The notes under the pieces: model-generated | The model's input: only the letters and a program-made list of their open reading frames with translations | Databases searched by the model: none | What the model was told of the DNA's origin: nothing | Source of the DNA: Adlercreutzia hattorii | GTDB taxonomy: Bacteria; Actinomycetota; Coriobacteriia; Coriobacteriales; Eggerthellaceae | Reading direction: 5' to 3' | Length of the DNA stretch: 64,000 nucleotides | Assembly (NCBI RefSeq): GCF_011405655.1 | Contig: NZ_AP022829.1 | Span: 2,031,001 to 2,095,000, forward strand | Made by a program: the position numbers and the translations under genes | Shown here: positions 26,583 to 36,661 of the stretch, in pieces | How the letters are laid out: each line of letters opens with the position of its first letter | How positions within the stretch are numbered: the stretch's first letter is position 1

Positions 26583-27287
26583 CTAGGCCTCCAGCATTGC
26601 TTCTGCCACGCGCAGATCCTGCGGATAGGTGATCTTGACGTTCGACACGTCGCCGCGCACCAGGGCCACCTTCTTGCCGCGCAGAACGAAGGCCTTGCAG
26701 GCGTCGGTGAGAATGGCGCTCTCCTCGGGAGTAAGCGATTCCAACGTTTCGCGCAATTCGCGCATATTGAAGCTCTGGGGCGTCTGGCCTTGGTAGAGCA
26801 CGCTGCGGTTCGGGATAGAAGAGATGAGCTCGCCGTCGAGACTCTCAACGATGGTGTCGGTGGCAGGCACGACGGTATCGCAGGCGCCATGAGCGAGAGC
26901 GGCGGCGATGTTATCCTCGATGATGCGCAGCGAGACGAAGGGCCGCACCGCATCGTGGGTGACGATGATGGAGGCGTCGTCCGCCTGGCACTCGTCCTCG
27001 AAGTAGCGGATGGCGTTCATGATGGTGTCGTTGCGCTCGGCGCCACCGGCGATGACGGCAACCTGGCCAGCGTACTGTGGGCAGTGCTTGGCGATGATGT
27101 CCTTCGTCTGCTGGATCCACGTTGCCGGCGTGAGCACGAGGATCCCATCAAAGCATCCAGCGGCGCAGAATTTCTCGAGAGTGTGCACAAGAATGGGCTT
27201 GTCGCCCAGATAGAAGAACTGCTTCGGCTTATTAGGGTTCCCCATCCGAACCCCCGACCCTCCCGCAAGAATAGCAGCAAACTGCAT
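26583..27287 (-). CDS. tarI: D-ribitol-5-phosphate cytidylyltransferase
   Basis: 234 residues of the IspD/TarI family. AAILAGGSGVRMGNPNKPKQ is the CTP-binding loop, and VTHDAVRPFVSLRIIEDNI and LYQGQTPQSFNMREL match TarI. It makes CDP-ribitol from ribitol 5-phosphate and CTP. ATG 27287 is preceded by AAAGGAG at 6 bases, better than the in-frame ATG 7 codons upstream. IspD for isoprenoids is the alternative; pairing with tarJ argues for TarI. First gene of its operon; 27288-27487 is the divergent promoter region. Confidence 0.88.
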   Translation of the reverse strand: MQFAAILAGGSGVRMGNPNKPKQFFYLGDKPILVHTLEKFCAAGCFDGILVLTPATWIQQTKDIIAKHCPQYAGQVAVIAGGAERNDTIMNAIRYFEDECQADDASIIVTHDAVRPFVSLRIIEDNIAAALAHGACDTVVPATDTIVESLDGELISSIPNRSVLYQGQTPQSFNMRELRETLESLTPEESAILTDACKAFVLRGKKVALVRGDVSNVKITYPQDLRVAEAMLEA

Positions 27288-27487
27288 GTACGCTCCTTTA
27301 GTCAACACGCAGCGCCCAAGACGCCACGGACCTTGTTACGTCTGCAATTCTACCATTGAGCCTCAAGCCCACAACGCCGTTCCACGACAGTCGCACATTG
27401 CCGAATGTTGTGAAAACTTACGTCAAACGGCCAAGAGTTGTATGTTCAAGCATAAAATGGATGCATCAAGCGCAAAAAGGAGCTCGT

Positions 27488-28903
27488 ATGTCGATTTTGC
27501 TATTCCTCGTCCTCGGAATCATCGCCTTTTTCCTCATCAACTACTTGGGGGGAAGGCACATTCAACAATCCTACCAAAACGATCTCTTCGATGGCGAATT
27601 CGGAAAGAGCACAGTATTCAATATCGCCTTTCGCATCATTGCCCCCGTCGTCGTCCTCACCCTCTTTGGTGCCCTTTGCTTTTTTGTTGGCCTCCGTTTC
27701 CAATTCTCGTGTCTTTTGATCTCTGGAGGAACCTATTGGACCCTTCGCATTTTGGCATGGGTGTCAAAGCGCCGAACCGTTCGCTCTAACCTTGCAATGG
27801 TCTTTGCCCAAGCCGCAGTTTCGCTCCTCTTGTCTTGGTATCTGTTTACGGCAATCGGGAATGACCCCTTGCGATCTCTGATTCCTGACGTCGGAGATGT
27901 TTCGCTGGAGTTTATCATCCTCGCCATGACCGTGCTGTTTTACATCTTGGCTGAAAGTCCGATGTTCCGAAAAGACCGCTCGCCTAGATCGCCTCTGATG
28001 GAAAAGCAGCTATTTGCCATCGACAAGCTCTGCCGAAAATCAATGCCCGAACGATATAAGCAGGATACGGCACTGCTGATCTTGTTCTACACTTTCGCGC
28101 TCATCGAGGACACCTATCGACCCTCGTGGATCCGACAAGCCGAGCGAATCGCTTACCATGTTCTCCCCTTCAAGAAACCGGGAACCTTTGGGCTGATGCA
28201 GACAACGTCTGACCGTCCGCTTTCAGATGAAGAGAGCATCGCTTGTGCGTATGACATAGTGTCGGATATTTACGATGAGTTCATCGAAACATACCCTGAG
28301 TTCACAATTGACCCCATGAATGAAGAAGGACACGCACCCTGTCTGGTTTCCTTCCAAGATGGCTATATCTACGAGTTAGCAGAGATGCTCACGGCGTTAG
28401 AGATTCGGTCAAGCACCCTATACGGAAAATACTGTGGAACGTATCTTCTGGACGTATATAGCTATTTCGATGCCGCCAAAGCTTTCGTGCTCCGGCAATA
28501 CAACATCAGCCGATCCCAGAGCGTCCAAGTTTCACACATCACGACAAAACGATGGGCTTCCTTGGCAGTTAACGGATGGTGTCCTCTGAACCAGCAGAGA
28601 GGCTTCGCTTGCCAGGGAGGAGAAGATGCGACGAGGACGCTTGTCGGCAGATATCATCCGGGCGGAGAGAAGCTGCAGTCGCACCTGATGAAGCATGATC
28701 TGAAAGGATGTGTTTATTTCGCATATTGGGGCGTTGACGGAACGGTAATCGTGCTTTCCGAGAATTCTAGAGAGGAGGAAGCTTCAACAGTAGCCAAGGA
28801 ACTCGATATGTCGATCGAATCCATTTCATACCACTTTGAAGAACTCGCCTCAAACCCTCGAGGCTTTCTTGACGCTTCGCTCATCAAAGAGACTCATGGG
28901 TAA
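27488..28903 (+). CDS. Four-helix membrane protein with soluble domain, unknown
   Basis: 471 residues from ATG 27488 (AAGGAG 7 bases upstream); the frame is open further 5' but lacks coding character. Four hydrophobic helices lie in the first 155 residues (starting SILLFLVLGIIAFFLINYLG). The soluble part contains ALIEDTYRPSWIRQAERIAY followed by GTFGLMQTTSD and SDEESI; the E-D...R-P...L-M-Q pattern recalls lysozyme-like or transglycosylase-like domains, but I cannot name the family. It converges on the retron operon (115 bases apart) and faces away from tarI. It could be an effector, a wall enzyme or unrelated. Confidence 0.65.
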   Translation: MSILLFLVLGIIAFFLINYLGGRHIQQSYQNDLFDGEFGKSTVFNIAFRIIAPVVVLTLFGALCFFVGLRFQFSCLLISGGTYWTLRILAWVSKRRTVRSNLAMVFAQAAVSLLLSWYLFTAIGNDPLRSLIPDVGDVSLEFIILAMTVLFYILAESPMFRKDRSPRSPLMEKQLFAIDKLCRKSMPERYKQDTALLILFYTFALIEDTYRPSWIRQAERIAYHVLPFKKPGTFGLMQTTSDRPLSDEESIACAYDIVSDIYDEFIETYPEFTIDPMNEEGHAPCLVSFQDGYIYELAEMLTALEIRSSTLYGKYCGTYLLDVYSYFDAAKAFVLRQYNISRSQSVQVSHITTKRWASLAVNGWCPLNQQRGFACQGGEDATRTLVGRYHPGGEKLQSHLMKHDLKGCVYFAYWGVDGTVIVLSENSREEEASTVAKELDMSIESISYHFEELASNPRGFLDASLIKETHG

Positions 28904-29018
28904 AACCAATCGAAGCAAACTATCGCGGCATAGCTAGCCGTCCGCCGTATTTTACGAGTGCCATTATTCCCGCACTCCCGAACCACGATGACAATCGATC
29001 ATTTGCACCATCTTTATT

Positions 29019-29981
29019 CTACCGATTTAACGGCTTCAAGTGTTTGCGCATCTCTTCATACTCCTGAGTAGCCAGTTGAAGCTCTTCGAGAACACGCTTT
29101 CGCAAAGTCTGAAACGAATCCAGCATCTCTTTTGGATCCCCTATCAATAAATGCGCTTCAGAGTCGTCGGTCTGGTCGTCGATGAATATCGAAAAGACGC
29201 CACCCCCGCCATCCCGAATCACATATTCCGGCAATAACTTATACGTCTCTTCGATCTCCCCGCTGCAATCTTCGTAGTAGCGAGAGACAGCATCAATGAA
29301 ATTGCTCGTCAGTTGACAGATGCTTTCGTGAATCGCCGTTACTTCGCAGTAAAACGACAGTTTCACAGAACCACTGCAGACACTTTCGATAATTTTCTGA
29401 TATATATCAATTCTTTTTTCAAACAACTCTTTATTAGTAAAAAATATCGGATTTCGCAATTGATATAAATCAAAACCAGCATGCTGGCGATCATTATCGT
29501 CTGGACAAAGAGAAACTATAAGCTGGCCATGCTGGGCGTGATTTCGAAGAGTGTGAGCCAGCGCATAATTAAAATTGCCGTCGTATTCACGACGAAGATC
29601 ATCGATAAAGACTTGGGCCTCAGCGTATCCATCCTTTTTGGCTGCATTGCAGAACGCTTCTAGGAACTCAACGAGGTTAACGCCATTGGAAACATAATTC
29701 ATCGCATAAGCATTGACAGTAATCCTATCATCCATACCCGTACCATTGTCGGTCGTTCCGTCAACGATCCCGCTATCAAACATCAAAATGCCATGAGTCA
29801 GTTGCCTATAGTTCCAGAGATATACGTCAAAAAGCTGGTCTACACTTGTCAAAGCGCCGGATAAAAGGATCCACTTCCTCATCACGGGGCCATATTTCGA
29901 ACCAAAATACCGCCCTTCAGCAACCAACTTCACAATCCAGTCATCTGATTCGTTTGCCTTATAGCTCGTACAAGAATCCAT
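29019..29981 (-). CDS. HEPN-like protein, candidate retron effector
   Basis: 320 residues, mostly helical, no membrane segment. Residues 141-153 read LAHTLRNHAQHGQ: R146-N-x3-H151 fits the R-x4-6-H motif of HEPN RNases, in the common variant where Asn follows Arg. The C-terminal 35 residues form a charged helix. It is the third gene after the XRE regulator and the retron reverse transcriptase, 77 bases downstream on the same strand, the usual place for a retron effector. Toxic RNase activity held in check by the RT-msDNA complex is an inference; the HEPN call rests on one motif seen by eye. Confidence 0.6.
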   Translation of the reverse strand: MDSCTSYKANESDDWIVKLVAEGRYFGSKYGPVMRKWILLSGALTSVDQLFDVYLWNYRQLTHGILMFDSGIVDGTTDNGTGMDDRITVNAYAMNYVSNGVNLVEFLEAFCNAAKKDGYAEAQVFIDDLRREYDGNFNYALAHTLRNHAQHGQLIVSLCPDDNDRQHAGFDLYQLRNPIFFTNKELFEKRIDIYQKIIESVCSGSVKLSFYCEVTAIHESICQLTSNFIDAVSRYYEDCSGEIEETYKLLPEYVIRDGGGGVFSIFIDDQTDDSEAHLLIGDPKEMLDSFQTLRKRVLEELQLATQEYEEMRKHLKPLNR

Positions 29982-30058
29982 ACGAGTTCCATCCTTCCCG
30001 ATTGGCGACCCTACCGATTTCTCAGGTCTTTTTCATTCCCTCCATGGCATCCTAATCG

Positions 30059-30985
30059 TTACAGAGCCGCCTCGGCAATCCTCTCCAACTCACTTCGAAT
30101 CCCCGGGAAGGTTCTCCTCCCCTCTACGTAGTCCGCAGCCTGTATCTGCCCCTGTATTCGAGACAGCAGGCTTAAGTCGCCACTCGCTTTCAGACTCCGC
30201 GTGTTACCGACTATCTTGCTTCTCAACTTGTTAGGCGCGACCAATGCACCATCAGGTGCTAGGCAAACACCTGTTACGATCTTGAAATCACCGGGAAGAC
30301 GATACTTCGTTTTGGATCCCTTCGCCCGGTGTCCATACTTGTGCAGAACGCCATCGACCTCATAGGCGAGTTTTTTCCAGGAGAAGTTGTCCTGTGAGGA
30401 GAAGGTCATGTCATCAACATAGAGAGTAAACGTGCACCCGTATGTACGAGCGAGGTCCTCTATTTCCTCGAACATTTTTGCATAGGCAAAGTACGCCACT
30501 GCCTGACTTGCCGGACTCCCTGTGGGTATCCCTCCCTGATACGTGCAAATATCTGTCAAGCACTGCGCCACATCTGGCGAGCATTCAAGCCTCTCGCGAA
30601 AAAGACGGTACACGTACTCCCGAACGCAGCTTGGGTAGAAAGAGCTGATGTCCATTGTCATAACATAGCCATTAGACCGATGCTTTGAGGCATTGTCCTT
30701 GTAAGACTTTCCCTTGGTCGCAGATATCACCCAGTCGGGCTTTTCGATTCGAGCCATCAAATCCCATACTCGACGTTGCCACTTTTTCATCTTGCTGCAT
30801 GGAGCCTCGATGGTTCTGCTTCCCCCTGAAGACTTCTCTTTGTCAAAAATGTTGTATTCTGAGAAACACTTGACGCGGCGAGAATCTCCCTTTTGCATAT
30901 ACAATAGCTCTTCAAGATCTCGCCTCCTTCCCAGGCGATAGATGGGGCTTCTCTGAAGAGGATATTGTCTGACCGTCTTCTTCAT
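30059..30985 (-). CDS. Retron-type reverse transcriptase
   Basis: 308 residues. RT motifs: RTIEAPCSKMKKWQRRV (motif 1/2 region), VMTMDISSFYPSC with catalytic D112, QGGIPTGSPASQAVAYF (motif 4), and TLYVDDMTFS with D191-D192. Retron-specific marks are present: NASKH at 98-102 (the NAxxH motif) and VTG at 237-239. Retron RTs prime reverse transcription from an internal guanosine of their ncRNA to make a branched msDNA. ATG 30985 overlaps the XRE stop as ATGA. Complete and intact. Confidence 0.92.
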   Translation of the reverse strand: MKKTVRQYPLQRSPIYRLGRRRDLEELLYMQKGDSRRVKCFSEYNIFDKEKSSGGSRTIEAPCSKMKKWQRRVWDLMARIEKPDWVISATKGKSYKDNASKHRSNGYVMTMDISSFYPSCVREYVYRLFRERLECSPDVAQCLTDICTYQGGIPTGSPASQAVAYFAYAKMFEEIEDLARTYGCTFTLYVDDMTFSSQDNFSWKKLAYEVDGVLHKYGHRAKGSKTKYRLPGDFKIVTGVCLAPDGALVAPNKLRSKIVGNTRSLKASGDLSLLSRIQGQIQAADYVEGRRTFPGIRSELERIAEAAL

Positions 30986-31272
30986 CGGAGGTTCACCGCC
31001 ATGTTTTCGATCACGGAATTCAGAACCTTAGAGGTGAGCAGCCTCGCCTTGGCCTCATCAGAACCCCCGTCGTATTGCTCTGCCAGCAACATGATAGAGG
31101 ACAACTTGATGCCAGTCACATCGGCATAGCGCTCCAAAATTCGCATGGTAGGCTGCTTCGTGTTGTTTTCGATCTCGGACAGATAGCTTCTGGATATACC
31201 CAGCATAGAGCTCATCTCCGAAGCAGAGTAATCGAAAATGAGACGTATTCTCCTCAAGGCAGTACCGATCAT
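30982..31272 (-). CDS. XRE-family HTH regulator of the retron operon
   Basis: 96 residues from ATG 31272, chosen for GAGG 5 bases upstream; a TTG at 31323 would add 17 residues. The HTH is SASEMSSMLGISRSYLSEIE with NNTKQPTMRILERYADVTG after it, a classic Cro/C1 fold. The last 35 residues may contact a partner. Its gene lies between the structured leader and the RT gene and overlaps the latter by 4 bases. It likely represses the operon through the inverted repeat at 31754-31772, or acts with the effector as an antitoxin part. Confidence 0.85.
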   Translation of the reverse strand: MIGTALRRIRLIFDYSASEMSSMLGISRSYLSEIENNTKQPTMRILERYADVTGIKLSSIMLLAEQYDGGSDEAKARLLTSKVLNSVIENMAVNLR

Positions 31273-31499
31273 CTCGTCCTCGTTTCTTTGAACGTTCACG
31301 AATGCCAGGCAGGCCTTTACCAAAATCGAAGCTCTACGAGGAAAACAGGTTCTTCATGGCCACCACGATTCTGATAATCGCAACGAGCAGATCGGCTCTA
31401 TTTAAAATAAAGCGCGCTACTCGGGCACGAAGCGAGACTCGCTTGCCCTGCCGTTCCTCCCCTTTCGTCTCGGTGCTTCCTGTAGTAGGTCCGCAGATT

Positions 31500-31713
31500 C
31501 CCATGAATCGCTCCCTTCCGCCTCGCACGACAATACTTTATTCGCGAGGCCTCCCAGAGAAGAGAGGGGTCCACAAGAAGCGGCCTACCCGGCTTTCTGC
31601 GCTCCGCGCGCTCCCAGCGCGGAGCGCCGGGCGGTGTGCACGAAGCAGTGGCTGGGGCAAAGCCCCACGGGCGTCAGAGACGCCCCAATGGATGGGAGCC
31701 GACCCGTCATAGG
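31500..31713 (-). ncRNA. Candidate retron msr-msd RNA
   Basis: On the minus strand, in transcript order: a segment at 31713-31694; a 7-bp hairpin with UCU loop (31685-31669); a 6-bp hairpin with UUU loop (31667-31653); a long 11-bp hairpin with 7-base loop (31627-31599, extended by CCCG/CGGG after a bulge); a 7-bp hairpin with 17-base loop (31550-31520); and a closing segment at 31515-31500. The first and last segments pair imperfectly (GCUCCC/GGGAGC and CCUAUGA/UCAUGGG), as the a1/a2 ends of retron RNAs do. Short hairpins then a long one is the msr-msd order. Its position upstream of the XRE and RT genes fits. The priming G is not fixed. Confidence 0.6.
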
Positions 31714-31730
31714 TGACGACCTTGATTGGG

Positions 31731-31772
31731 AGTATAACATATCATTTCGCTATTTGCGACAAAATTTCGCAA
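31731..31772 (-). promoter_or_regulatory. Promoter and operator-like palindrome of the retron operon
   Basis: TATACT (complement of 31731-31736) is a good -10 about 20 bases before the a1 segment. The -35 region is poor, but a perfect inverted repeat TTGCGA-N7-TCGCAA spans 31754-31772 and overlaps it, a good site for the XRE protein. A weak -35 with an overlapping operator is typical of autoregulated operons. Confidence 0.5.
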
Positions 31773-31782
31773 GTAGCATACA

Positions 31783-31950
31783 ATGGCAGGGTTGCCCCCG
31801 TTCCCCGTTCGAGAGCGTTCACATATTTTGATCCACAAGCTGATCGAAAACACTAGACTTTTAGTCAATGGTTCTATAACATTTCGTCGATAAGAAAAGC
31901 TCATGCCAGAGCTTTATCGGCCCCGAGCGCCCGCGTTCGGGGCCGTTTTT
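31783..31950 (+). ncRNA. Possible small RNA ending in an intrinsic terminator
   Basis: No coding frame is seen on the plus strand here, yet it ends with a strong intrinsic terminator: CGGCCCCGA / TCGGGGCCG (31918-31926 and 31937-31945) followed by five T. Just before it is a 7-bp hairpin AAAGCTC / GAGCTTT (31896-31902 and 31909-31915) with a 6-base loop. TACAAT near 31779 could serve as -10. A small RNA divergent from the retron is possible; a stray terminator of a decayed gene is the alternative. Confidence 0.4.
31918..31950 (+). terminator. Intrinsic terminator
   Basis: A 9-bp GC-rich stem with 10-base loop and a TTTTT tail reading rightward. It separates the retron promoter region from the decayed gene at 32061. 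The gene or RNA it serves is uncertain. Confidence 0.7.
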
Positions 31951-32060
31951 CTTGAATACATTTCCGTACGCGACACCGAGCGCTCCATGGTACATCAATT
32001 CTGACAGCCTCCCATGACGGCATCTTTTTCATATTCGAAACGCAAAACCGAAGGAATCGC

Positions 32061-32854
32061 ATGACCAAAGAAGCGCTCATTACCAACGTTTCTTGCAACC
32101 TGCAGAAGCAAGCCGGGATCGCTTACGCCATCGGAATCGAGAACGTACGCATACCTTTCTATCAGGCACCCTCCGACTTCTTTTGCGAAGAATACACGAC
32201 ACTTTGGAGGAAGCACAATACAGCCCTGTTTAGATCGTTGCAGCTCTACGTTCGCTATTTAACTATTAGCATGGGAAGAAGTACTTCCTGATGTCGATTC
32301 CGACGCAACACCAACATTGATCATGGACTATCTGCATCCAGTTTTCAAGACAATTTGAGACGTCCCCATCACCTTCAAAGACCAGCTTTTGAGAGCGGCA
32401 ACTATTTTGTCTCACGTTTCAATAGGAGATCTCGAATATATCTCGAGCAAGCACAAGGATCGCAGGAGAAACCAGGCAGACGCAATGAAGCGAGCTGCAG
32501 CAATAGATGCTGATTTGTCGCCCCCCATACGAACTCGCCGCTAAGGATCTGTACGGATCGGATACTGCCAAACATTTTGCAAGTCTTCATGGTAGATTCG
32601 TGCATGACGCGCATCCGACCCTTCTGGAAGAAATAAACGACGCCCAGCAAGACTCAAGTGGAGTCACCGTATACCACTCAGAAGGATCGTACAATTTGAG
32701 CGCTGAGATCAAAGTACTATTACTTCACTTGCCCCTGCTCTGCACGTCCTATCAAGCCTTCAACGAGTACGCTAATAGCAAATATCGGTCATTGAGCCAC
32801 CATCCTTATCCGGAAAACGGACGCAGCTCGAACGAGAATGCGCGATTGGACTAG
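32061..32854 (+). pseudogene. Decayed gene, unknown family
   Basis: Three frames form one continuous protein-like sequence of about 260 residues: MTKEALITNVSCNLQKQAGI..., a shift near 32270 into AWEEVLPDVDSDATPTLIMD, a TGA at about 32357, further DVPITFKDQLLRAATILSHV, a shift near 32525, and YELAAKDLYGSDTAKHFASL to a stop at 32854. Two frameshifts and one stop make it inactive. I do not recognise the family. It lies in the defence and mobile zone and has a lower GC content than the core genes, so it was probably acquired. Confidence 0.5.
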
Positions 32855-32950
32855 CTCCGCATGATATTGCCCGATACCGACCGCTTCGCTCCCGCATATG
32901 TCTCCGTTATAAAGTGAATAGACCAACCGTCAGCGAGTACGGGCGTCGCA

Positions 32951-32996
32951 CCTATTATAGATTCCCTCTCTTGCTTACGCGGTAATCTATAATAGG
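32951..32996. repeat. Long AT-rich inverted repeat
   Basis: Perfect 13-base arms CCTATTATAGATT (32951-32963) and AATCTATAATAGG (32984-32996) with a 20-base loop, about 145 bases before the TagF-like gene at 33140. There is no T-run, so it is not a simple terminator. Each arm carries a -10-like TATAAT/TATTAT, so it may be an operator or a remnant of a mobile end. The rest of 32855-33139 shows no gene. Confidence 0.5.
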
Positions 32997-33139
32997 ACAA
33001 TTGCGGTAACTTGAAAGACTTGAAGGTCTCTTAGCATCCTTGCAGCCACATTGCCAATGATCAACTCTGCTTCGACAATCTAAGATAGAATATCTAGCAT
33101 TCGAATAACGCATCACCGCAGAACCAGGAAAACAGATTA

Positions 33140-34273
33140 GTGCGCAAGATCGTCATTGGCATAGCAACTTTTCTTCTGGCGGCGCTCTATGCGCTGTGCT
33201 CGTTGTTGCCGCAACGGCAATGCATCGTGTGCATCAGCCGGCAGAGCGATAGCGCGCCGATCGACTTTCGACTCATTAAGGACTATTGCGAGCGCCGCGA
33301 CCCGGCATGGGAAGTCATCATTCTTCCCAAGCAGCTGCGCAATCCAACGACCTACCTACTCGAGATGATCCGCCAGGTCTACTACATCGCGACGAGCCGC
33401 GCCGTGGTGCTGGACTCCTACTGCATCGTCGTCAGCCTGCTGCACGACCGCATTCGCGTGCCCGTCATTCAAATCTGGCACTCCCTGGGCAATATGAAGA
33501 GGTTCGGCTACACCGCCTTCGGCACAGACGAGGGGCATTCCGAGGCGACGGCGCGCCTGATGCACATGCACGAGGGCTACGACGCTATCGCCACCTCGTC
33601 CTTAAGCTTCGCCGACGAGTTCGCCGCCGCGTTCAACGCCGAGCCGGCCAAACTCTTCGAGGCGCCCCTCCCCCGAGTCGACCTCCTGCTGGACGAGCAG
33701 CACCGCGCCCGCCAGCGCGAGGCCATCCTCGCCGCCTACCCGCAGCTGCGCGGGCGCGATACCATCGTCTACTGCCCCACTTTCCGCAAGCAGCCGGCCG
33801 CCAACGAAGCCGAGGCCGCGGGCGCGCTCGTCGATGCCGTCGACTTCGACCGCTTCAACTTCGTCTACAAGCCGCATCCCGTGAGCAAGCAGGTCATCGA
33901 CGATCCGCGCATCGTCACCATCCCCGGAGGCCAATTCGATGCCCTGTTCGTGGCCGACGTCATCATCAGCGACTACTCCACCGTCATCTACGAGGCCGGC
34001 CTGCTGGACATCCCCGTCTACTTGTACGCCTACGATTGGGCTACCTACCGGGAGAAACGCGGCCTCACTATCGATTTCGAAAACGACGTTCCCGCGCTGT
34101 TCACAGACGATCCCGACGCAATCATAAAAGCCATCGAGGACAAAGAGTTCGATGCGGAGGCCTACCGTGTCTTCGAAAACGCCAACGTCACGCTGCCGGA
34201 AAACGCGTCGTGCACGGAGACGATCTGCGAAGTCATCATCCGCGCTGCAACGCCCTGCAAGAAAAAATCCTAA
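33140..34273 (+). CDS. CDP-glycerol glycerophosphotransferase family protein
   Basis: 377 residues from GTG 33140, with an N-terminal hydrophobic anchor (IVIGIATFLLAALYALCSLL). VIQIWHSLGNMKRFGY carries the first catalytic histidine, VYCPTFRKQ and FVYKPHPVSKQVI the second, and VADVIISDYSTVIYEAGLLD the donor site. It is a second polyol-phosphate transferase, distinct from the one at 24291; in teichoic acid pathways the two roles are primer addition (TagB-like) and chain growth. Its size and anchor suit the primase role, which is an inference. It faces the tagGH exporter genes. Confidence 0.86.
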   Translation: MRKIVIGIATFLLAALYALCSLLPQRQCIVCISRQSDSAPIDFRLIKDYCERRDPAWEVIILPKQLRNPTTYLLEMIRQVYYIATSRAVVLDSYCIVVSLLHDRIRVPVIQIWHSLGNMKRFGYTAFGTDEGHSEATARLMHMHEGYDAIATSSLSFADEFAAAFNAEPAKLFEAPLPRVDLLLDEQHRARQREAILAAYPQLRGRDTIVYCPTFRKQPAANEAEAAGALVDAVDFDRFNFVYKPHPVSKQVIDDPRIVTIPGGQFDALFVADVIISDYSTVIYEAGLLDIPVYLYAYDWATYREKRGLTIDFENDVPALFTDDPDAIIKAIEDKEFDAEAYRVFENANVTLPENASCTETICEVIIRAATPCKKKS

Positions 34274-36072: not shown

Positions 36073-36360
36073 CTAGGCGGCAGGCACGACTTGAAGCCTG
36101 AATCCAAGGCAATCAAGCACATTAACAACAGTGCTGAAGCGAGGGTTGCCCGATTTGCTCAGCGATTTATAGAGGCTCTCGCGTCCGAGGCCCGTTTCCT
36201 CGGCAATAGCCTTCATGCCGCGCGATCGGGCGATAACGCCGAGCGCATCTGGCAGAATCGCTGGATCCCCCAGCTCTAGGACGGCATTGAGAAACGCGGC
36301 AACGTCCTCGCTGGAATTAACATCCAACGATGGATCCCATTCTATCCATTCGCTACTCAT
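36073..36360 (-). CDS. HigA-like antitoxin
   Basis: 95 residues from ATG 36360. The C-terminal HTH MKAIAEETGLGRESLYKSLS followed by NPRFSTVVNVLDCLGFRLQ is typical of the small addiction-module antidote proteins paired with HigB/RelE-like toxins. Its start overlaps the toxin end by 8 bases, so the two are made together. It should bind the toxin and repress the shared promoter. Toxin-first order supports the HigBA type. Confidence 0.85.
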   Translation of the reverse strand: MSSEWIEWDPSLDVNSSEDVAAFLNAVLELGDPAILPDALGVIARSRGMKAIAEETGLGRESLYKSLSKSGNPRFSTVVNVLDCLGFRLQVVPAA

Positions 36361-36661
36361 AGTCACGCCTCCACGACTCGTAGATCTCCTTGGCGAGTTT
36401 AATGTCCTTCGTTTGAGACGACTTCGTGCCTCCAACGAGCAGCAGGAGGAGGGCTGCGCCTTCAAGGGCGATATAGACGCGATATCCAGCTCCGAAATGA
36501 AATCTCAACTCGAATACTCCATCGCCTACCGCTTTCCAATCCCCCGTCAATGCCCCATAGTGCTTGATCTGAAGGATCCGCGCATTGATACGCGCGATCA
36601 CATTGCGATCCCTGAGAGAAGACGCCCATTTCTCATAACGCGGAGATTTGACAATCCTCAC
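36353..36661 (-). CDS. HigB/RelE-like toxin
   Basis: 102 residues from GTG 36661. SPRYEKWASSLRDRNVIARI, GDWKAVGDGVFELRFHFGAG and YRVYIALEG...LLLLVGGTKSSQTKDI match the phage-derived Gp49/HigB family of ribosome-dependent mRNA interferases; the conserved basic and aromatic positions are kept. AAGGGTGAG precedes the start. Intact. Confidence 0.87.
   Translation of the reverse strand: MRIVKSPRYEKWASSLRDRNVIARINARILQIKHYGALTGDWKAVGDGVFELRFHFGAGYRVYIALEGAALLLLLVGGTKSSQTKDIKLAKEIYESWRRDYE

Follow-up and report, generated by a model that had tools for sequence, protein, structure and literature searches.

A type VI retron of Adlercreutzia hattorii with a candidate RNA-gated peptide effector

The window analyzed here, the whole 64,000-nt stretch of Adlercreutzia hattorii DNA at positions 2,031,001–2,095,000 of NZ_AP022829.1 (coordinates below are window positions), holds an operon that is, by sequence comparison, a type VI retron: a reverse transcriptase (RT) of the type VI clade adjoins an HTH gene of type VI. 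Retrons of this type are bacterial RT systems with a presumed part in defense against viruses. The operon is apparently intact. We lean, with modest confidence, toward an explanation in which a retron RNA is followed by a small amphipathic effector peptide whose translation is gated, the whole standing under autoregulation by the XRE protein. Comparison with homologous loci supports the operon type, two msr hairpins (A and B), the small ORF, and the predicted burial of its SD. The operon is of a known kind; the mechanism proposed for it can be tested and may be new for type VI.

The operon, its relatives, and its promoter

All features described below lie on the minus strand unless another strand is given, and the gene order there is an extended −10, a structured leader, a 56-aa ORF, an XRE/HTH gene, and the RT gene. 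The RT (30059–30985, 308 aa, YVDD intact) scored 273.3 bits with the PADLOC model RT_VI and 138.4 bits with the next model. The 96-aa XRE/HTH regulator (30982–31272), whose gene shares a 4-base overlap with that of the RT, matched PADLOC HTH_VI at 86.1 bits (next model, 24.7 bits) and Pfam HTH_3 at 44.5 bits in profile scans that began at its third residue. HTH_VI by itself is no marker of type VI, since matches to it turned up in 103 of the 138 genomes scanned and also in 10 of 14 controls. Across 10 RT sequences, residues N98, H102, Y189, D191, D192, T238, and G239 were invariant and A99 was conserved in at least 90%; we take these residues to represent the motifs named NAxxH, YxDD, and VTG in retron RTs. 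The window genome gave no second RVT_1 match (E 0.001). A scan of 28900–33200 against the curated RNA families of Rfam 15 yielded no match up to E 5, a result that we did not count as failure of a defining feature.

Homologous operons were taken from plasmids, genome contigs, and viral contigs and were kept if an XRE ORF directly preceded the RT. Loci without an XRE match, or scoring below 225 for the RT and below 60 for the XRE together, were dropped (Bacteroidota-type loci among them). Scanning the viral contigs with the RT alone as the query confirmed 0 of 12 candidates, and an alignment-based scan gave 45 loci. After 12 repeated operon copies had been skipped by hand and 13 identical leaders removed, 73 distinct leaders remained. 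The ORF count used 69 of these, leaving out four cut leaders (L065, L077, L089, and L115); peptide and SD work used 66, with three near-copies (L154, L166, and L175) also left out by hand. Of these 66 leaders, 43 are non-redundant, and 40 of the 43 could be scored for the XRE SD control. The RNA alignment began with 27 leaders and was reduced to 26 by dropping L076, whose 5′ leader does not align (this locus has the small ORF, and its leader is possibly broken or chimeric). Alignment A4, the training set of the covariance model R1, comprises 17 leaders, 16 from Bacillota genomes (mostly clostridial) and one from a viral contig; the window and Coriobacteriia are absent from it, and L081 together with the staphylococcal, enterococcal, and coriobacterial leaders was kept out.

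Type VI operons were found in genomes of Coriobacteriia and Bacillota and on staphylococcal and enterococcal plasmids. RT_VI exceeded 250 bits in 5 of the 396 Coriobacteriia genomes searched, the window’s own included. DNA matching the type VI operon L173 was present in 99 of the 5426 complete E. coli genomes, in 98 of them over at least 80% of the query, and an RT, an HTH protein, and a hypothetical protein are named in all 40 E. coli matches among the matches listed. One annotated E. coli locus is surrounded by phage genes, and the small ORF is recorded there as a hypothetical protein.

The −10 that the earlier note had placed at 31736–31731 was confirmed as TATACT with TG upstream, giving the extended −10 TG-T-TATACT (31731–31739); our guess for the transcription start is near 31722–31724. 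A sigma-70 scan does not list this promoter, probably because a matching −35 is wanting. At the −35 position lies the inverted repeat TCGCAAATAGCGA (31747–31759), a candidate XRE operator. The repeat TCGCN5GCGA recurs upstream in 23 of the 43 non-redundant type VI leaders, compared with a rate of 0.0 when mononucleotides are shuffled. The XRE may bind it, and autoregulation would require a site of this kind. Directly upstream of the promoter, on the plus strand, is a strong terminator-like hairpin with a T run (31918–31945).

The retron RNA core

The earlier note had described 31713–31500 as a leader of msr-msd architecture with four hairpins. All four were found where it had put them, at 31685–31669 (UCU loop), 31667–31653 (UUU loop), 31627–31599, and 31550–31520, and only 2 of 200 dinucleotide shuffles fold as well as the 214-nt stretch (z −4.4). 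The retron character of the leader is further supported by the RT and HTH of the operon, both of type VI by PADLOC, and by the first two hairpins, which recur in other type VI leaders.

In the leader alignment, the elements run in the order 5′ hairpin, GGUC, two hairpins, long hairpin, conserved block to GCACCA, and pyrimidine tract facing the SD. The window’s 5′ hairpin, P1 (CGUCA-CCUA-UGACG, 31705–31718), stands directly before GGUC (31701–31704); in the 17 other leaders, its counterpart shows 85.3% pairing, and each of the 6 pairs has double changes. The msr hairpins A (31669–31685) and B (31653–31667) correspond to helices 4 and 5 of A4, which are 99.0% and 97.0% paired and show double changes in 3 of 6 and 5 of 8 pairs, respectively. 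A 31-pair structure made up of P1, A, B, and short closing helices is 91.4% paired in the 17 leaders, with 15 pairs and 58 cells doubly changed compared with 9.4 and 21.9 in shuffles, and sliding the pairing partners cuts its pairing to 34–46%.

A covariance search with leaders of homologous operons, a check that the earlier note had suggested, bore out this relationship. Model R1, in whose 17 leaders P1, A, and B covary, matches the window at 31726–31649 (20.9 bits, E 0.0031 in 315,121 bases), a stretch that includes both msr hairpins and is the sole match in the 64 kb. An unfiltered search of 6 kb gave the window match an E of 6e-5, the next match having 1.2. Out of sample, R1 matched 12 of 40 sources at E up to 1: Gordonibacter L067 (46.9 bits), L081, three staphylococcal loci, L101, Enterococcus L104, L150 (E 0.0017), and the window, with weak matches in L066 (E 0.06) and in L160 and L164 (0.08). 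The remaining 28 sources gave no match, including the coriobacterial loci L090, L083, and L059 and the E. coli-type L173. This pattern marks the window leader as a divergent member, and R1 misses some type VI leaders.

Between hairpin B and the SD region lies the long hairpin GCGCUCCGCGC / GCGCGGAGCGC (31599–31627), which has a 7-nt loop and is our msd candidate. Similar stems, uninterrupted over at least 8 pairs, occur in this interval in 17 of 26 leaders compared with 4.0 expected from shuffles.

GGUC and, downstream, GACC (31568–31571) are the 5′ strand and the a2-like 3′ strand of the likely closing helix. ACC:GGU is present and invariant in 17 of 17 homologs and therefore lends the helix no covariation support; in the 17 leaders, double changes occur in 1 of the 11 pairs of the closing helices, the pairs next to GGU:ACC showing one in seven. 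In the window, enforcing GGGUC:GACCC gave −104.8 kcal/mol compared with −117.4 kcal/mol for the free fold. The earlier note had also proposed looking for a conserved G just after the a1 segment, and GGUC is indeed present in 17 of 17 A4 leaders and in 24 of the wider set of 26, the two others being staphylococcal leaders with GGUA. This G is a candidate for priming. Canonical retrons such as Ec86 have two msr hairpins, a longer msd-like hairpin, and a closing helix near which a conserved G lies. Type VI leaders have counterparts of these, the closing helix being a likely one; it would comprise GGU:ACC and only a few further pairs, it is preceded by P1, and the putatively gated ORF comes directly after the RNA.

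The earlier note had drawn the RNA differently, as a 214-nt msr-msd unit closed by an a1/a2-like helix between 31713–31694 and 31515–31500, so that the closing helix itself would mask the SD. The end pairing does form in the window, where ViennaRNA gives its 7-bp core a probability of 0.85–1.0; it belongs to the best full-length fold (−117.4 kcal/mol free, compared with −116.7 when P1 is enforced and −109.9 when the local SD hairpin described below is enforced), and it would also bury the SD. As a conserved closing helix, however, it fails: of 10 homologs, L087 alone (0.04) passes the 5% level, and a match of at least 7 bp like CCUAUGA:UCAUGGG occurs in 18% of shuffles of both segments. Forming it displaces P1 and the local SD hairpin; covariation is seen in the counterpart of the former and, in two other groups of loci, in the latter. 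Its 3′ strand is the SD and start-codon region of the recurrent small ORF, and the sequence from 31566 onward makes up, in the local fold, an SD-sequestering hairpin followed by the start of that ORF, so that the 214-nt extent takes in both the core of the retron RNA and the beginning of the gene after it. We consider the 214-nt architecture improbable.

The free ensemble of the window leader gives P1, GGGUC:GACCC, and the local SD hairpin near-zero probabilities, and in the free MFE structure P1 is displaced by the long-range end helix. Transcripts ending from 31600 to 31510 retain P1 when folded, and P1 is lost once the end reaches 31500. Imposing P1, GGGUC:GACCC, and the local hairpin together gave back the free fold, an uninformative outcome that probably stems from a base common to P1 and GGGUC. 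We weighed conservation above single-sequence energies in preferring the shorter core, and a real switch between the two predicted leader forms is possible. The corrected boundaries should help in locating this RNA or its putative RT-DNA.

The small ORF and its SD

The small ORF (31334–31504) encodes a basic 56-aa peptide with a C-terminal helix, which we propose as the effector. We searched the homologous operons for ORFs of 28–75 codons with an ATG or GTG start and an SD, ending 15–145 nt before the XRE gene. Such an ORF is present in 68 of 69 operons, compared with 7.6 expected from dinucleotide shuffles and 4 on the opposite strand. All 68 products are basic with a hydrophobic stretch near the end, a combination expected 2.7 times from shuffles and seen once on the opposite strand. 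The single miss, L169, reflects an XRE gene call that begins too far upstream and thereby overlaps the ORF.

In the three groups with the most differences (the window is in none of them), dN/dS was 0.21, 0.21, and 0.28 in frame compared with 0.78–1.81 in the other frames, the pairs being summed and not independent. Smaller groups gave 0.21 (5 and 5 differences), 0.50, and 0.69 (another frame, 0.52). Judged by these ratios, the small ORF shows purifying selection where the differences suffice. An ORF upstream of the XRE with structured RNA in front could also be a device for leader-peptide attenuation, its translation controlling XRE and RT expression and its product being of no importance, but selection on the product in three groups and a common charge and helix pattern make this reading very hard to credit.

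The 66 peptides are 31–69 aa long and carry net charges of +1 to +15. The positive charge is heavier in the N-terminal half in 38 of 40 non-redundant peptides, the window peptide being even and that of L070 the reverse. Compared with shuffles of the same residues, the 32-residue tails score as more amphipathic (mean z 1.6; 32 of 40 exceed 1); the window peptide, with a z of 0.7, is unremarkable in this respect. AlphaFold, run on the window peptide without an alignment, predicts a single helix at residues 25–54 (mean pLDDT 66). The window peptide is 10–22% identical to its homologs in the alignment, and a tblastn search with it against the other loci found no link apart from its own copies (best remaining E 0.56); we therefore count it as kin by position and pattern.

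None of the peptides tried matched a known toxin family: 0 of 6 reached the Pfam cut-off, and 0 of 4 matched PADLOC or NCBIfam models at E 1. The peptide of the E. coli locus L192 matches PHROG 15287 and 5826 (119.4 and 87.4 bits), families of unknown function that the window peptide does not match. In Shewanella phage MuM16-1 (L193), an unannotated 48-aa ORF lies 193–49 nt before the HTH gene at 2173; it fits the small protein better than does p31, the opposite-strand gene compared in the published work. Burkholderia phage KS5 (L194) has a weaker, unannotated 42-aa candidate with a GTG start.

The start of the window ORF lies at the foot of a predicted SD-sequestering hairpin (31511–31566), identified from the local fold and from homologs. 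It consists of the anti-SD CUCUCUUC (31566–31559), a 5′ bulge, an apical stem within 31552–31520, and the SD GAAGGGAG (31518–31511). The SD is paired with a probability of 1.00 in a 105-nt local fold; the local hairpin is absent from the full-length fold of the window, in which the SD is held by the long-range end helix instead. Across the 43 non-redundant loci, the mean paired probability of the SD was 0.82 compared with 0.59 when the upstream sequence was shuffled (higher in 38 of 43; Wilcoxon p 2e-8), and it exceeded the 0.63 of the XRE SD (40 scored; p 2e-4). At least 3 SD bases pair upstream in the local MFE structure of 39 of the 43 loci, with 30–63 nt between the strands in 37 of the 39. 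Typically, an anti-SD:SD stem at the base leads, through nucleotides left unpaired on the 5′ side, into an apical stem. Full-length folds retain the local hairpin in 17 of 26 leaders and lose it in 9, the window included; in L072, the msr pyrimidines appear to pair with the SD instead.

RNAalifold missed the hairpin in the alignment of the SD region, in our reading because a 1-nt bulge shifts the columns between groups, and we used local folds and two groups of loci of the same geometry after this miss. In eight prophage-type loci, pairing in the hairpin reaches 97.3%, and double changes affect 6 pairs and 9 cells compared with 2.2 and 2.7 in shuffles; this covariation is all apical because the basal stem never varies. 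In seven clostridial loci, pairing is complete (100%), double changes affect 5 pairs and 9 cells compared with 2.3 and 2.8, and two of these pairs are basal. The count of pair types was not above shuffles in either group (104 and 286 of 500 shuffles, respectively, reached the observed value).

A buried SD may be ordinary translational tuning, and with it the peptide could be an ordinary accessory protein: a basic component of the RT-RNA-DNA particle, such as an RNA-binding cofactor or an anchor, for which the hairpin only sets the dose, the effector being the XRE or lying elsewhere. The net positive charge of all 66 peptides and its weighting toward the N-terminal half would suit such a role, and PMC8541194 reports that type VI retrons carry a gene beside the HTH for what it calls a small auxiliary protein. 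An amphipathic C-terminal helix together with a buried SD would be more typical of a harmful peptide, however, and the neighbor downstream of the RT, a 320-aa ORF, has no match in the other fetched loci, which would speak against that gene as a shared effector. On balance we regard the accessory role as unlikely, though less so than the 214-nt architecture, and continue with the peptide as the candidate effector.

A proposed mechanism and the genomic surroundings

In the explanation that we favor, a single transcript from an XRE-regulated promoter would carry the core, the SD hairpin, the peptide ORF, the XRE, and the RT. The retron RNA core would span ∼140 nt, closed by GGUC:GACC and holding the two msr hairpins and the long msd-like hairpin. 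Most likely, the RT copies part of this core into RT-DNA, the XRE represses the promoter, and the fold of the RNA keeps the peptide untranslated or nearly so. Phage disturbance of the RT/RNA/DNA complex, of the RNA fold, or of the XRE would then raise peptide synthesis, and the peptide would damage the membrane or otherwise arrest the infected cell. Where this account goes beyond the parts, their conservation, and the predicted SD burial, we infer it from other retrons and from the character of the peptide; the single transcript, the RT-DNA, the closing helix in the window, autorepression, gating as a switch, peptide toxicity, and the phage trigger all belong to this putative portion.

In type I toxin mRNAs, of which tisB and hok are examples, a short peptide with a hydrophobic stretch is encoded behind a buried SD. 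The type VI leader is, by prediction, alike in both respects; it would work like these mRNAs, but we do not class it with them, and XRE and RT genes lie downstream of it.

Extending the reading to the whole type is a tentative step, and we give it less credence than the account of the window. Type VI retrons would be RNA-gated peptide-toxin systems, in which the RNA/RT-DNA complex holds a bulged hairpin closed over the SD of an amphipathic peptide of ∼50 aa on the same transcript until phage interference releases translation. If this is true, an RNA-gated type VI retron would act by translation control in cis rather than by protein–protein sequestration of an effector, the mechanism described for other retron types. 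The literature surveyed, short of the founding paper on type VI retrons (Mestre et al. 2020) and of most subscription papers, names no type VI effector and describes neither an SD-burying hairpin nor the peptide as effector. A small peptide that recurs across these operons, its start site predicted to be buried, gives a concrete effector candidate that can be tested.

The window matches other type VI retrons in its RT type, its XRE/HTH partner, its msr-like RNA, and its adjoining small protein gene (the last by the definition in PMC8541194). No tested feature sets it apart from them, and the SD-sequestering hairpin was derived here for the type.

Directly after the RT gene lies the 320-aa ORF mentioned above (29019–29981). 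No Pfam, PADLOC, or NCBIfam family passed threshold on it, and we rejected it as the retron effector after tblastn among the fetched loci matched only the window’s own genome. It contains an RNxxxH stretch that resembles HEPN proteins.

GC content drops to 0.44–0.53 over 27000–33000 from ∼0.60 in the flanks; the retron lies within this stretch, next to a Glyphos_transf gene. Upstream of its promoter, 32000–33100 is ∼1 kb without a convincing ORF, perhaps made up of decayed genes. Among eight other genomes of the genus, six match within 33184–34167 and none matches 32000–33183. Farther out, two short overlapping ORFs at 36073–36661, also on the minus strand, resemble, in their translations, a RelE/HigB-type toxin and its antitoxin.
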